DNA of 48,944 bases from Akkermansiaceae bacterium (lineage in GTDB: Bacteria > Verrucomicrobiota > Verrucomicrobiia > Verrucomicrobiales > Akkermansiaceae): positions 1 through 48,944 of the forward strand of contig CAIXKE010000001.1 of the NCBI GenBank assembly GCA_903919975.1, given 5' to 3'. Within the stretch, counting starts at the first letter, position 1. Every line of letters starts with the position of its first letter. Of the stretch, positions 19,132-47,441 are shown in pieces. The notes beneath the pieces are model-generated. The model did no database searches. It was not told where the DNA came from and saw only the letters and a program-made list of their open reading frames with translations. A program made the translations under genes and the position numbers.

Positions 19132-19456
19132 CGAACCCGAAGAAGCAGACCTCTAAACACTTGGACTGCGTGCAGCCTGCTGGCGGTGATCCGGATCGAG
19201 TTGCATTTCACGAAGTGCAAGCTTATCAAACCCTCACCCGTAGATCTGTCATGCTCCACAGCTGACCCTTCGCGCCGCTGCCGCTGCCTCGCATCGCCCA
19301 TGCACCGTCCTTGCGCTACGGCCCGAATCGCTCCCGCGCCCGTGGCTACAGGATATTCCGCAACTTCCAGGCCATTGCATACTGAATCGCGGGGAAACTA
19401 ACAATACATGAACCCGCAGAAGCCACCCACTAAAAGTTCAGTAGCGCCATTTGGGA
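19132..19456. other. Intergenic gap with one RAYT-type half palindrome
   Basis: This 325-base gap has no convincing gene. At 19161-19195 it contains TTGGACTGCGTGCAGCCTGC followed by GGTGATCCGGAT, a partial copy of the repeat found at 22057-22125, 44300-44406 and 45003-45088. The rest is GC-rich sequence with no terminator or promoter I can support. Confidence 0.6.
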
Positions 19457-21976: not shown

Positions 21977-22056
21977 GAAATTTGGGTGGAAAAGATGGAT
22001 GCCGCATAAGTCCGTATCATGCAACGGTAAGCATCCTGAATTTGGGATTCCGGCTG

Positions 22057-22125
22057 GTGGTGATCCGGATGCATCGACGCAGCAGGCTGCGTGGCCAAAG
22101 CGGCAGCAGGCTGCACGCAGTCCAG
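22057..22125. repeat. RAYT-type palindromic repeat (REP-like)
   Basis: GGTGATCCGGAT is followed by GCAGCAGGCTGCGT and then GCGGCAGCAGGCTGCACGCAG. The element carries the same CAGCCTGCTG/CAGCAGGCTG cores as the copies that flank the RAYT gene at 44.4 kb. It lies between the res-type gene and the M16 peptidase gene. Confidence 0.75.
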
Positions 22126-22181
22126 GATGGAATCACTGGCGGTTCATTCGTTCCTCGGCAAATTCCTGTCTAGGTGGCCAT

Positions 22182-43218: not shown

Positions 43219-43965
43219 TCAGTCCTGCCTTTTGGGGCGGGGCTTGGGAGTTTCCGCGGCATCCGCGGTGCCTAACAGCATGGCGATTTCCTTGCGATTG
43301 AGAATCGCCCAGCGGCCGGGTTCCAAATCGCCGAGCCACAATCCGCCGATGCGGACGCGAAGTAATTTGGTGACTTGATAGCCGAGGGTTTCAAACATCA
43401 CGCGGATCTGGCGTTTTGCGCCGTGATCGAGCACCACCTTGATTCGGCGCGGGGAGAGCCGCTCGATGGCCTTGGCCTTGAGTTTGCCCTCCGGGGTATA
43501 GACGCCTTCCAGAAACTGATCGAGATGGGCGTTTTCAAACGCTTGGTTTGAGGTCACGAGGTATTCCTTCTCCACCGCTTTGGAGGGGTGCATGAGTTGC
43601 TGCGAGAGATCGCCGTCATTCGTGAGAATCAGCAAGCCCTCGGAATCGCGGTCGAGCCTACCGACGTGGTGGAGCGCGTGGAGGGTTTCGGGCAGCAAGG
43701 CGTAGATGGTTTCGCGGCCGAGTTCGTCCTCGCGGGTGCAGACGTAGCCGCGGGGTTTGTGGAAAGCGACGATGAGCGGATCCTTGGGGGTGACGCGCTT
43801 GCCATCGAGGCGGACGTGATCGCCCTCGGTGATGCGGGTTCCCATGTTGATGCAGGGGGCGCCATTGACCTCGATGCGGCCGGCCTGGATGAGTTCATCG
43901 CACTTGCGGCGCGATCCCACGCCGCAGGAAGCGAGGAATTTATTGAGGCGGGTGCCGTCTTTCAT
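43219..43965 (-). CDS. RsuA/RluB-family pseudouridine synthase
   Basis: Isomerises uridine to pseudouridine in rRNA. In 248 residues an N-terminal S4 RNA-binding domain (RLNKFLASCGVGSRRKCDELI, 6-26) precedes the catalytic domain with GRLDRDSEGLLILTNDG holding the catalytic Asp. RIKVVLDHGAKRQIRVMFETLG matches the family. The basic C terminus (KPRPKRQD) is short. The RluB/RsuA/RluE/RluF choice cannot be made by eye. The ATG at 43965 is used; a TTG 5 codons upstream is possible. It is 75 bases downstream of the small-basic-protein gene. Confidence 0.9.
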   Translation of the reverse strand: MKDGTRLNKFLASCGVGSRRKCDELIQAGRIEVNGAPCINMGTRITEGDHVRLDGKRVTPKDPLIVAFHKPRGYVCTREDELGRETIYALLPETLHALHHVGRLDRDSEGLLILTNDGDLSQQLMHPSKAVEKEYLVTSNQAFENAHLDQFLEGVYTPEGKLKAKAIERLSPRRIKVVLDHGAKRQIRVMFETLGYQVTKLLRVRIGGLWLGDLEPGRWAILNRKEIAMLLGTADAAETPKPRPKRQD

Positions 43966-43982
43966 GGTGGTAGGGCTCAATG

Positions 43983-44013
43983 CAAAAGGCGCGAAACCCG
44001 GAGGGTTCCGCGC
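43983..44013 (-). terminator. Rho-independent terminator after the small basic protein gene
   Basis: On the minus strand a stem GCGCG-g-AACCC / GGGTT-t-CGCGC with loop TCC is followed by CTTTTGC. It lies between the small basic protein gene and the pseudouridine synthase gene, so it may attenuate readthrough. Confidence 0.6.
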
Positions 44014-44040
44014 GCATTGGAAAAGAAGGGAGGCAAGGGA

Positions 44041-44196
44041 TTAACCCTCTTGCTTGGTCTTCGGCAGGCCGATCGGTGAGCGGCCGGCTTGCCATTCGCC
44101 GCGTGATTTGAGCAGCTTGACGCGCTCGAAACGCTTGAGGACGGAACGCTTGCCGCCGACGGTGGCGCTGGACTTGAGACTGTTGTGCTTGGACAT
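44041..44196 (-). CDS. Small basic protein, PVC-specific family
   Basis: A 51-residue protein: MSKHNSLKSSATVGGKRSVL continues with KRFERVKLLKSRGEWQAGRS and ends PIGLPKTKQEG. It matches the 'small basic protein' family (TIGR04137 type) known from Chlamydiae, Verrucomicrobia and relatives, with the conserved KRSVLKRFERV core and GLPKTK end. Function unknown; the basic composition suggests RNA or ribosome association. It is shorter than common gene-calling cut-offs. It lies upstream of the pseudouridine synthase gene on the same strand and supports the PVC assignment. Confidence 0.92.
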   Translation of the reverse strand: MSKHNSLKSSATVGGKRSVLKRFERVKLLKSRGEWQAGRSPIGLPKTKQEG

Positions 44197-44299
44197 CGCG
44201 TGAGGTGGTTAAAAAATCGCGGGGGCGCGGAACCTAGGAGCCGCCCGCTGTTGTGGCAATCGAAAAAAGAAGGAACTTTTTAAAAAAGCTTTTAAGCCA

Positions 44300-44406
44300 T
44301 GGACTGCGGCAGCCTGCTGCCGCTTTGGGTTCGCAGCCTGCTGCGTCGAATCATCTCCAGGCCAGCAGGCTGGCATGGAAAAGCGGCAGCAGGCTGCCGC
44401 AGTCCA
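44300..44406. repeat. REP-like palindrome downstream of RAYT
   Basis: An inverted repeat with arms of about 26 bases: TGGACTGCGGCAGCCTGCTG at 44300 and its complement ending at 44406. Between them are two more CAGCCTGCTG/CCAGCAGGCTGG cores. It begins 2 bases after the end of the RAYT gene. It is a REP/BIME-like unit. Confidence 0.9.
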
Positions 44407-44408
44407 AA

Positions 44409-44993
44409 TCAGAAATCCTCATCTTTTACGGCGATTTCGTCGTATTGGAAACTCGTGATGGTTTTCAGCCAAGCGGGACTCACGGCTTTCTTGAACACAG
44501 CGGCGCGGCACCATTTCCAGTCGGAACCGTGCGGGACGAGTCGGTGATGCACGGCGTTCTGATGGACATAATGAAGTCGGGCGAGGTAGCTCCGTTGGTG
44601 TGTGAGATGGGTTTCGCGAAAATTCTGCCAGAGGCGGGAGCGGCCGGGTTTCTCTTCGCGTCGGTTCAATTCCCTAGTTGCGAGGCTGTGTAATTTCCGG
44701 AGCATCAGGCCGAGGGACGTGGCTGCGCCATCCACCGTGGGCGGGCTGTGACCAATAAAATGATAGTGATTTGAGAGAATCGCCCAGGCTTCGAGTTTCC
44801 AACCGAATTCGTCGGTGAGGGATAATAAGGCGTCTTGAAACCAGTCTTTCATTGCGTCTTCGGCGAGGAGATGGCGTTGCTCTGCTGCGCGGGCGGTGAC
44901 CATGTATACGTCGGCGAGGGAGAGCCGGTGGGGTGGAGCGTGCGGCCAATGACGAGTGCCTAGCGCGCAGTCGGAGGCGGAGGGGAGGGGCAT
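44409..44993 (-). mobile_element. REP-associated tyrosine transposase (RAYT)
   Basis: A 194-residue Y1 (HUH) transposase, predicted to act on the palindromes around it. The N terminus has HWPHAPPHRL, typical of the verrucomicrobial RAYT group; the HUH motif is NHYHF with His76 and His78; the catalytic tyrosine is in SYLARLHYVHQNAVHH (Tyr136 or Tyr142). AWAILSNHYHF matches the family's W-x-x-S-N-H-Y-H. Palindromes lie on both sides (44300-44406, 45003-45088), with further copies at 19161 and 22057. RAYTs are usually domesticated single-copy genes that spread REPs (family knowledge). It appears intact. Confidence 0.9.
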
Positions 44994-45002
44994 GTGATTG
45001 GC

Positions 45003-45088
45003 TTGGACTGCGGCAGGCTACTGGCTTGTGGAGAATTCGACGCAGCAGGCTGCGAATTTAAAGCGGCAGCAGGCTGCCGCAGTCCAAG
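45003..45088. repeat. REP-like palindrome upstream of RAYT
   Basis: TTGGACTGCGGCAG at 45003 and its complement CTGCCGCAGTCCAA ending at 45088 enclose CGCAGCAGGCTGCG and GCGGCAGCAGGCTGCC cores. It lies between the RAYT start and the rnr stop, 7 bases from the latter, so it may also end or stabilise the rnr message. Confidence 0.9.
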
Positions 45089-45095
45089 GCTCGCT

Positions 45096-47441
45096 TTAGC
45101 GGCGGCGCTTGGGCTTGCCGGTTTTCTTGGCGATGACAGCCTTCTTGGGGGGGCCGGGTTTTGTGATCGTCTTGCCGCGGTGTTTGGTGGGCGGGCCGGT
45201 TTTTGGCACGGGGCGGGCGTCGAGTGGACGGGTGCCTTCGGTGGTCGGGCGGCCGGCGACGGCGAAATCGACGAAGCGTTTTTCGCGATCCAAGCCGATG
45301 ACGTGGAGTGGCAGGCGCATGCCGATGGCGATGACTTTGCCATCGGTGGAAACCCAGGCTCCACGGTGGCCTTCGAGGCGCCAGCGGCCTTCGGGCAGAT
45401 CCTCGCGTTTGACCACTCCGCGGATGCCCATTTCCGGGACTTCCACCATCAAGCCCATCGGGCGAACGTCGGTAACGAGGCCGTCGAACTTGTGAGGATC
45501 GTGCATTTCCGCGACGCGCTGGAGGTATTCGAAGAGTTTGATTTGTTTCGTTTCGCTTTCGGCCTCGGCGGAGGTGCGCTCGCTGTCGGAAATGTGGCGG
45601 GCGATTTCGCGCAATTCGGCTTGCGAGGGTGTGGCGTCGTGGCGCTTTGGCGGATTGGCGAGCAATGGCTGAAGGGCGCGGTGGACGATGAGGTCGGCGT
45701 AGCGGCGGATCGGGCTGGTGAAATGGCAATAATCGCCTTTGGCGAGGCCGTAGTGGCCGATGGGCTCGGCGGAGTAGGCGGCGCGTTTGAGGCTCTTGAG
45801 CAGGCCGAGTTTGATGATGTGCTCCTCGGGTGTGCCTTTGGATTCATCCAGTAATTTTTGGATGTGCGCGCGATTGGTGAGATCGCCGGGACGGTAGCCG
45901 TGGAGTTTCGCGGTCTCGGTGTAATCCATCAGGCGTGATGGATCGGGATCTTCGTGGATGCGATAAACGGCGGGTTTCATCCGCTCGCGGAGGATTTTCG
46001 CGACGGCGTCATTGGCGGCGAGCATGCATTCCTCGACAAGTTGGTGGCTTTGGATGTGGACGACCGGGTCCGCTCCGCAGGCGCGACCTTTGTCATCCAA
46101 GCGGATTTTGATCTCGGGCATTTCGAGATCGAGCGCGCCGCCTTGGAAACGTTTGCGGCGGAGAACGGATGCGAGTTTCCAGGCTTCCTTGACCATCGGG
46201 ACGAGTTGGGCTTCGGAGCCTTCGGGCGCGGGTTTGCCATCGAGGATTTCCTGCGCTTGCTCGTAGGAAAGCTTGGCGCGGCTGTGAATCACGGCATCGA
46301 TAAAGGTGGCCTTGGTGATTTTTCCTTCGTGGGAAATTTCCAGAACGGCGCACTTGGTCAGGCGATCCACATAGGGCTTGAGCGAGCAGATGCCGTTGCT
46401 GAGTTCCACGGGCAGCATCGGCAGCACGCGATCCACGAGGTAAGTCGAGTTTCCGCGCTCGATGGCTTCCTTGTCCATCGGGCTGCCGGGCTTGATGTAG
46501 TGGGAAACATCGGCGATGTGCACGGCGAGCTTCCAACCGTAAGCGGTCGGCTCAACCCAGAGCGCGTCGTCGTGGTCCTTGGCGTCGAAGGGATCGATGG
46601 TGATGATGAGGTGCTTGCGCCAGTCCTCGCGGCGGGCGATTTCCGACGGTTCCGGGTCTTCCGGCACGGCGCGGGCTTCGGCGAGCACATCTTCTGGAAA
46701 GGAAGTGCGCAGCCCGAAGCGGTGGATCACGCCGATGATGTCCACGCCCGGATCGCCGGGCCAACCGAGGACTTCGATGATGCGGCCGCGCGGGGCGGTG
46801 CCGGCTTGCCAATTTTCCAGATCGACGACGACGAGCTGCCCGGGTTGGGCGGTGGTGTCGCCAACGAGTTCGATCCGGCCGTCGATCGCCTTGTCCTGGC
46901 AATCGATCCAGCCGAAGCCCTTGTTTTTTTGGAACACGCCGATGAGTCTGCCGGAGCGGCGGCTGATGATTTGCTCGACCTTGCCGCGGGCTTCCTCCGG
47001 GGCGTCCGGAATGAGTTCCTGGCGGGTGCGGAATTGCCTTTTGGGGCTGGGTTTTTGAATGGAAACGAGCACCCGGTCGCCATCCAGCGCGGTGCCCGTG
47101 TCGCGGCGTGGAATGTGGACGCGGTCGAGCGCAACGAGGTCGATTCCGGTGGCGAGATTCGCCGGGCTTGTGAGGTCTGGAAAGAAAAACGCGTGGCCTT
47201 TTGGGTGGAATTTCAGCGAACCGGTGAGGGCGTTGCCCTTTTTAGCGCGGAGGACGTAGGTGGCCTTTTTTCCTTCTTGGATTACGCCCTCGCTAACGAG
47301 GCTTTCGATGGTCTTCCGGAGCTCCGAGCGGCGATCGACGGGGACTTCGAGGTGGCGGGCCAATGACGATTTGGTCATCGGTTGGCCCGGATTGGAGTTC
47401 ATGTGCTTGAGAATCGCGTCTCGCAAGTTGTCGCCTAGCAT
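45096..47441 (-). CDS. rnr: Ribonuclease R
   Basis: 3'-to-5' exoribonuclease that degrades structured RNA. The 781 residues contain an N-terminal winged-helix domain (about 1-65), cold-shock domains, the RNB catalytic domain with IDPFDAKDHDDAL (282-294) holding the metal-binding aspartates, and a C-terminal S1 domain (FDGLVTDVRPMGLMVEVPEMG). The last 40 residues are Lys/Arg/Pro-rich (KKAVIAKKTGKPKRRR), as in other RNase R tails. I use the ATG at 47441; 26 upstream codons are open but not family-like. Catalytic aspartates are all present. Confidence 0.94.
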   Translation of the reverse strand: MLGDNLRDAILKHMNSNPGQPMTKSSLARHLEVPVDRRSELRKTIESLVSEGVIQEGKKATYVLRAKKGNALTGSLKFHPKGHAFFFPDLTSPANLATGIDLVALDRVHIPRRDTGTALDGDRVLVSIQKPSPKRQFRTRQELIPDAPEEARGKVEQIISRRSGRLIGVFQKNKGFGWIDCQDKAIDGRIELVGDTTAQPGQLVVVDLENWQAGTAPRGRIIEVLGWPGDPGVDIIGVIHRFGLRTSFPEDVLAEARAVPEDPEPSEIARREDWRKHLIITIDPFDAKDHDDALWVEPTAYGWKLAVHIADVSHYIKPGSPMDKEAIERGNSTYLVDRVLPMLPVELSNGICSLKPYVDRLTKCAVLEISHEGKITKATFIDAVIHSRAKLSYEQAQEILDGKPAPEGSEAQLVPMVKEAWKLASVLRRKRFQGGALDLEMPEIKIRLDDKGRACGADPVVHIQSHQLVEECMLAANDAVAKILRERMKPAVYRIHEDPDPSRLMDYTETAKLHGYRPGDLTNRAHIQKLLDESKGTPEEHIIKLGLLKSLKRAAYSAEPIGHYGLAKGDYCHFTSPIRRYADLIVHRALQPLLANPPKRHDATPSQAELREIARHISDSERTSAEAESETKQIKLFEYLQRVAEMHDPHKFDGLVTDVRPMGLMVEVPEMGIRGVVKREDLPEGRWRLEGHRGAWVSTDGKVIAIGMRLPLHVIGLDREKRFVDFAVAGRPTTEGTRPLDARPVPKTGPPTKHRGKTITKPGPPKKAVIAKKTGKPKRRR

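Follow-up and report, generated by a model that had tools for sequence, protein, structure and literature searches.

A probable REPIN-RAYT system with a GA[C/G]T foot in an Akkermansiaceae genome and its relatives

The 48,944-nucleotide stretch of Akkermansiaceae DNA analysed here (the window) probably carries a REPIN-RAYT system, that is, a TnpA_REP-type HUH/Tyr protein together with cognate hairpin repeats in which a GA[C/G]T foot replaces GTAG/GTGG. The gene is intact and flanked by inverted REP pairs, the repeats are dispersed, their stem is compensated, and the stem type tracks the RAYT clade.

The RAYT gene and its REPs

The source draft genome (G000) comprises 3.81 Mb in 112 contigs; its congener G077 contains locus L064, recorded under a Verrucomicrobiaceae MAG. 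In descending coordinates, the gene order in the window is RNase R (RNB domain), a REPIN, the RAYT gene, a second REPIN and, farther on, an S4/pseudouridine synthase gene, with about ten bases between the end of the upstream REPIN and the RAYT start codon. The features are as follows.

44409..44993, minus strand: RAYT (TnpA_REP-type HUH/Tyr protein), 194 aa, with H76-Y77-H78, Y142 and N146 (ORF, NF047646, 4er8 profile and fold)
44298..44408, no strand: REPIN downstream of RAYT, two inverted REPs and two inner hairpins (inverted repeats, DNA fold)
44300..44326, plus strand: outer REP with foot TGGACT, 7-bp stem, loop CCTG and tail TTT (structure scan, strict pattern)
44334..44343, plus strand: apical core of the inner hairpin, 24 bases past the outer core (core matches)
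44363..44372, minus strand: apical core of the second inner hairpin (core matches)
44380..44406, minus strand: inverted outer REP (structure scan, strict pattern)
45003..45088, no strand: REPIN upstream of RAYT, gene-side end decayed (inverted repeats, fold)
45060..45086, minus strand: intact outer REP of the upstream REPIN (structure scan, strict pattern)
45043..45052, minus strand: apical core of the inner hairpin of the upstream REPIN (core match)
19161..19195, plus strand: single REP copy, decayed (homology, fold)
22057..22125, minus strand: half REPIN, in which the REP (22097-22124) has an additional stem base and the inner core is at 22080-22089 (core and strict pattern)

The initial annotation had described an intact RAYT gene between palindromes on both sides, and this was borne out. 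The ORF is uninterrupted, and inverted repeats lie both downstream (44300-44343/44363-44406) and upstream (45002-45023/45067-45088) of it. When folded as DNA, 44296-44409 gave z = −9.8 and 45001-45090 gave z = −5.8, with 0 of 200 shuffles as good in either case. The downstream arms had been said to pair over about 26 bases, large for a REP; the pairing is real, since the arms beside the RAYT 3′ end (44300-44326 and 44380-44406) are identical over 27 bases. Each unit consists of two inverted REPs, an outer REP laid out as TGGACT + GCGGCAG-CCTG-CTGCCGC + TTT and a mirror-image second half. Since the facing REP halves mirror each other, the long arms are two REPs opposed, i.e. a REPIN and not one big REP. 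The hairpins are REP-type, as annotated; the canonical GTAG type was rejected, because the window REPs read TGGACT and a GT[AG]G foot is not present. A search of 43900-45300 against Rfam returned nothing at the gathering score.

The palindromes are not confined to this locus. The core CAGCCTGCTG has 96 matches in G000 versus 7 for the reversed control, not all of them repeats, as many single matches sit in unrelated sequence; the stricter REP pattern TGGACTGCN{9,14}GCNGCTTT has 31 versus 0. In a sample of 40 own-genome stretches picked by the exact core, plus the window, there are at least 44 REP matches (reversed control 0), and these occupy 28 places with inverted pairs at 16, counts that are lower bounds. 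Of the 44, 25 depart from the gene-adjacent GCGGCAG stem, mainly via an extra stem base. The palindromes previously noted at 19161-19195 and 22057-22125 are indeed homologous REP copies, albeit decayed or half units whose folding is not clearly above shuffles (19150-19210, z = +1.43; 22040-22140, z = −1.20). The extra stem base can be seen by comparing 22097-22124 with 44300-44326, and the gene-adjacent REPs are without it. A bulge is required by the E. coli TnpA_REP (PMC8266576).

The bases preceding TGGA are also biased. C occupies base −2 in 34 of the 37 own ends (among 77 relatives' ends, C in 58 and T in 18), and base −1 is T or A in 32/37 own and 67/77 relatives' ends; base −3 is rarely G, with little preference beyond. 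CT and CA are the cut sites reported for other TnpA_REP proteins (PMC8266576).

Six REPINs at L029 (G000:C38:16200-33000) and L048 (G000:C94), five of them within 13 kb, have unbulged outer stems, and their inner stems resemble those next to the RAYTs of other species (L064-L066). Perhaps this stretch was acquired, or the six belong to a second lineage of REPINs.

The RAYT protein

The 194-residue product (P0001) contains the two annotated motifs, NHYHF and SYLARLHYVHQN; from the alignment with 4er8, the catalytic Tyr is Y142 (HYVHQN) and not Y136 (SYLA). Pfam Y1_Tnp gives a weak match, at 19.5 bits where the cut-off is 23; the match to NCBIfam NF047646 (REP_Tyr_transpos) is clear, though its 69.8 bits stay below a cut-off of 80 that 2 of 6 tested family members reach. 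No further Pfam domain was found in P0001 with E up to 1. A profile built from 28 relatives had 4er8, the complex of TnpA_REP with a REP hairpin, as its sole match among PDB sequences (hmmsearch E 8.9e-12). The AlphaFold2 model of P0001 (mean pLDDT 83) also points to this fold, with 4er8 ranked first by Foldseek (E 1.6e-8, TM by target 0.69) and the ISDra2/IS608 transposases ranked after it as predicted fold matches.

HUH, Y142 and N146 (Y-x3-N) are unchanged in 28/28 relatives. The residue after Y-x3-N is A in 20/28 and P in 8/28; P0001 has NA, so there is no Y-x3-NP. In E. coli, Q95, H101 and R104 have been tied to the GTAG foot (PMC6006769, PMC8266576). In the 4er8 alignment of the 28 relatives, the Q95 position is Q in 17, H in 10 and Y in 1, the H101 position is T in 27 and the R104 position is T in 25, while the E100 position is E in 26 and D in 2. 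The residues at these GTAG-linked positions fit an altered foot, which is compatibility and not proof.

Only one gene of this RAYT family is present in G000, the next best match having 29% identity. The same genome holds 15 other Y1_Tnp matches (L001-L015), several with frames of about 360-390 aa.

Relatives, stem types and distribution

A public-genome scan gave 33 related loci, mostly from Verrucomicrobiota, with five Planctomycetota, one BRC1/Sumerlaeota and one gammaproteobacterial symbiont among the records; 32 of the 33 titles read MAG, and some taxon assignments may be wrong. L075, from Haloferula sp. BvORR071, is a non-MAG record. We have scanned flanks for a GA[C/G]T foot, at least 4 pairs and TTT within 420 bases of the gene. 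REPs flank RAYT in 39/43 loci, on both sides in 33, compared with 2/43 for reversed flanks and 0/43 for flanks 1.5 kb off. The scan was empty at L075, L076, L092 and L098, of which L075, L076 and L098 have bulged or altered REP versions, judged by eye.

Across relatives, the REP consensus is a foot NNGA[C/G]T, a compensating stem and a TTT tail, with the GTAG/GTGG foot absent. Outer foot variants include CGGACT or AGGAGT (L107), TAGACT (L108), GGGAGT (L110) and TTGAGT (L111), and the exact 27-mer of the window was found in 15/33 loci, three Planctomycetota among them. In alignment A2 (30 scan hits, 27-mers only), GA, T, stem pairs 1 and 2, and TTT are constant in 30 rows, and GA[C/G]T is present in 30/30, the rows having been picked for that foot. 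The A2 stem has 93.6% of its cells paired, two-sided changes in 5/7 pairs (the inner pairs, compensated) and a covariation score of 0.428 versus 0.132 in shuffles (0/500 as high), values biased towards pairing since at least 4 pairs were required. A second test used the 37 distinct 27-mers among the matches listed for the phylum, whose selection did not depend on pairing at the positions under test: pairs form at 91 of the 111 free stem positions, versus a shuffle maximum of 77 (5000 trials), with foot, tail and some stem bases fixed by the pattern and other lengths and repeats left out. P0001 had no match at 1e-10 in plasmid or phage records, and the exact 27-mer none in viral contigs.

L112-L116 were tried as family members (E 1e-22 to 5e-30) and set apart, as their flanking palindromes differ. 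L112, L115 and L116 have more distant RAYTs with other palindromes alongside, several starting GGAGT, without a GC..TTT tail.

The relatives of the window RAYT make one clade. The tree leaves out L081, L088, L093, L094, L096, L110, L114 and L116, which were broken, truncated or not extracted. It has two branches, a near clade of 23 rows whose stems are of the CAGCCTGCTG type and a far clade of 17 rows whose stems are of other types, with support of 88/92 and 88/81. The REP stem type requires 1 change on this tree, against a shuffled mean of 14.5 (0/500 as low). The labels were assigned by eye and later checked against flank sequence, the exact core being found in 22/23 near rows (L098 with one mismatch) and in 0/17 other rows (one single-mismatch match each in L092 and L149). 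The foot C/G requires 4 changes, some loci being mixed, and follows the tree less closely than the stem.

These results bear on the reading that the repeats belong, as MITEs, to some unrelated transposase and that the RAYT landed among them by chance. Although the genome has its 15 other Y1_Tnp matches, and some genomes have repeats but not this RAYT, the REPs flank the gene far more often than in either control and their stem type follows the RAYT clade, making a chance landing highly improbable. The link between transposase and repeats that was claimed at the outset is upheld by the same two results.

The four Planctomycetota rows form one group (100/99) within the near clade, which suggests a transfer between phyla, provided that the MAGs are sound. 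Such a group would also fit if the REPIN-RAYT-REPIN block were itself a transposon, an IS200-like compound element with the dispersed REPINs as its gene-less derivatives. In line with this, a gene that has the block on one flank in L077, L079 and L095 has a homologue in L078 with the block on the opposite flank; DNA similarity around the gene between L077 and L078 breaks off no more than about 12 bases from the outer REPs; and flanking genes are hardly common to the loci, three groups of loci excepted. However, the gene is single-copy in G000, the L078-L079 difference may be a rearrangement of neighbours, gene order decays anyway between such distant species, and there may be MAG errors. We consider a compound transposon unlikely, and a REPIN-RAYT system the better description.

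Near-clade repeats are tandem: past the outer REP comes another hairpin, which repeats its apical core on a different stem. This second hairpin is present in 137/148 REPs (31/33 in the own genome, 68/74 at near-clade loci, 38/41 in G056 stretches), the core-to-core pitch being 23-28 bases, with 0 tandem hairpins in control windows 200 bases on. Hairpins in REP-dimer spacers were already known (PMC3733652), but the spacer section of that paper describes no second hairpin sharing the REP apical core at a fixed pitch. Both clades meet in G056 (one contig, 8.0 Mb), which has two near-clade genes with CAGCC-type REPs, two far-clade genes with GGTGGCAAGC or near variants, and at least 2 additional stem types for which no gene was identified.

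Within the order, 85/288 genomes match the RAYT profile at 1e-20, divided by us into 76 strong and 9 weak; at most 11 candidates per genome were scored, and absences are less sure than in the ten-genome re-search described below, in which all were. Matches to a loose REP pattern outnumber those of the reversed control by more than 10 in 56/76 strong, 4/9 weak and 25/203 other genomes. REP excess is associated with RAYT within families f1 (p 3e-5), f2 (p 3e-4) and f4 (p 2e-3), but falls short of significance in f3 (p 0.14) and in f6 (3 genomes, p 1), these values being a guide only because species are not independent. There are 20 strong genomes out of 76 without a clear REP excess, some of which have a foot outside the pattern (L107, L108, L110, L111). 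Re-searching ten genomes, nine without a 1e-20 match plus the weak-only G139, gave a weaker RAYT match in seven and none at 1e-8 in three. In RAYT-less genomes with repeats, the repeats may have outlived the gene, or a different protein may serve them; elsewhere, as many as 6 profile matches occur in one genome. The expectation of one RAYT and many REPs per genome therefore holds in G000, as regards this RAYT family, and not as a general rule. In G252 (single contig), 46 of 49 pattern matches belong to one REP family (GGCGAGNNATCGCC or near), many as inverted pairs about 160 bases apart, and the RAYT match is weak (4e-10).

Repeats that persist in genomes lacking the gene, and the many half or decayed own copies (28 places, 16 inverted pairs), could mean that RAYT and repeats are a domesticated, immobile relic in which the hairpins mainly act as transcription terminators or mRNA stabilisers. 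On the other hand, the ORF is intact with catalytic residues invariant in 28/28 relatives, and conservation extends to the foot and tail, parts external to the hairpin that a terminator could do without. A relic is accordingly improbable to our mind, and we retain the REPIN-RAYT system.

Proposed mechanism and comparison with known systems

By analogy with studied systems, a REP would fold once single-stranded, e.g. on the lagging strand, and RAYT would bind its foot and hairpin, cut via Y142 at CT or CA ahead of TGGA, and move REPINs in trans. In the sub-clade of the window, a further RAYT molecule would be seated on the second hairpin, whose apical core is that of the outer REP. The proposed cleavage, cut-site and trans-movement steps are borrowed from TnpA_REP and REPIN work (PMC8266576, PMC3116915). 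Comparing 19.5 kb of G056 with the congener G066 revealed no empty site or movement, the long blocks being only 74-88% identical with synteny breaks near REPINs. At L167:16876-17180 in G056, one REPIN type is nested in another, and the small set of elements compared with it contained no uninterrupted counterpart. Since no empty site was found, the insertion boundaries of the REPINs are putative.

The closest known systems are the GT[AG]G REPtrons/REPIN-RAYTs of E. coli, Pseudomonas, Stenotrophomonas and Marinomonas. These share the low-copy HUH/Tyr protein with the 4er8 fold and the cognate hairpins that flank the gene, are dispersed as inverted pairs and carry a short foot immediately on their 5′ side (PMC6006769, PMC8266576, PMC3116915). 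The system here differs in its foot NNGA[C/G]T and fixed TTT tail, in Y-x3-N followed by A in 20/28 (P in 8), and in the second same-core hairpin at fixed pitch of the near clade. Within the same phylum, the verrucomicrobium O. terrae has GTAG repeats (PMC3733652).

Three other assignments were tried and rejected. The TIRYT/TIRtron elements (mostly subclass 2.1; PMC3733652) likewise have a RAYT-like gene between long non-GTAG inverted repeats and moderately abundant dispersed copies; here there are true hairpin REPs with a foot, reading the REPIN sequences of the window revealed no GGGGWSAS, and the expected C-terminal HTH domain was not found in P0001 in the Pfam search above. TnpA_Y1 class 3 of Planctomycetes and Acidobacteria likewise combines a single gene with multicopy non-GTAG hairpins in partly overlapping phyla, but has Y-x4-Q and a CnGA foot (PMC6006769), versus Y-x3-N and GA[C/G]T here. 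The IS200/IS605 elements (IS608, ISDra2), whose subterminal hairpins have a 5′ guide, have the HUH/Tyr fold in common; here the gene is in one copy, where several near-identical tnpA copies would be expected of such elements, with Y-x3-N instead of Y-x3-Q, and the repeats disperse without it.

No description of the GA[C/G]T foot or of these repeats was found in the open-access papers searched, and the main text of PMC3733652, figures aside, has no word starting CAGCCTGCTG or GGACT. It is conceivable, though we hold it only tentatively and rather doubt it as a whole, that these repeats make up a tagged REP superfamily of their own, the third after GTAG and CGTC. It would have a GA[C/G]T foot, a TTT tail and its own RAYT clade in Verrucomicrobiota and Planctomycetota, with a near branch whose two tandem hairpins per end would seat two RAYTs, and a foot that may be a re-coded guide for CT/CA cleavage. 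The choice of REP and cut site by RAYT has been tested on three GTAG systems (PMC8266576). The present repeats offer a natural series in which foot and tail are near-fixed and the stem varies by compensation, and G056, with two RAYT clades and two REP types, makes recognition and cut-site choice directly testable. The GA[C/G]T foot also brings in a further tag next to those of the GTAG and CGTC superfamilies.

An extra hairpin lies outside the foot at some loci, though not as a rule in the window genome. At L105, L147, L134, L151 and other G056 loci, this small hairpin (e.g. GACGC-GCA-GCGTC or GCGC-GAA-GCGC) is often placed directly before the CT that precedes the foot.
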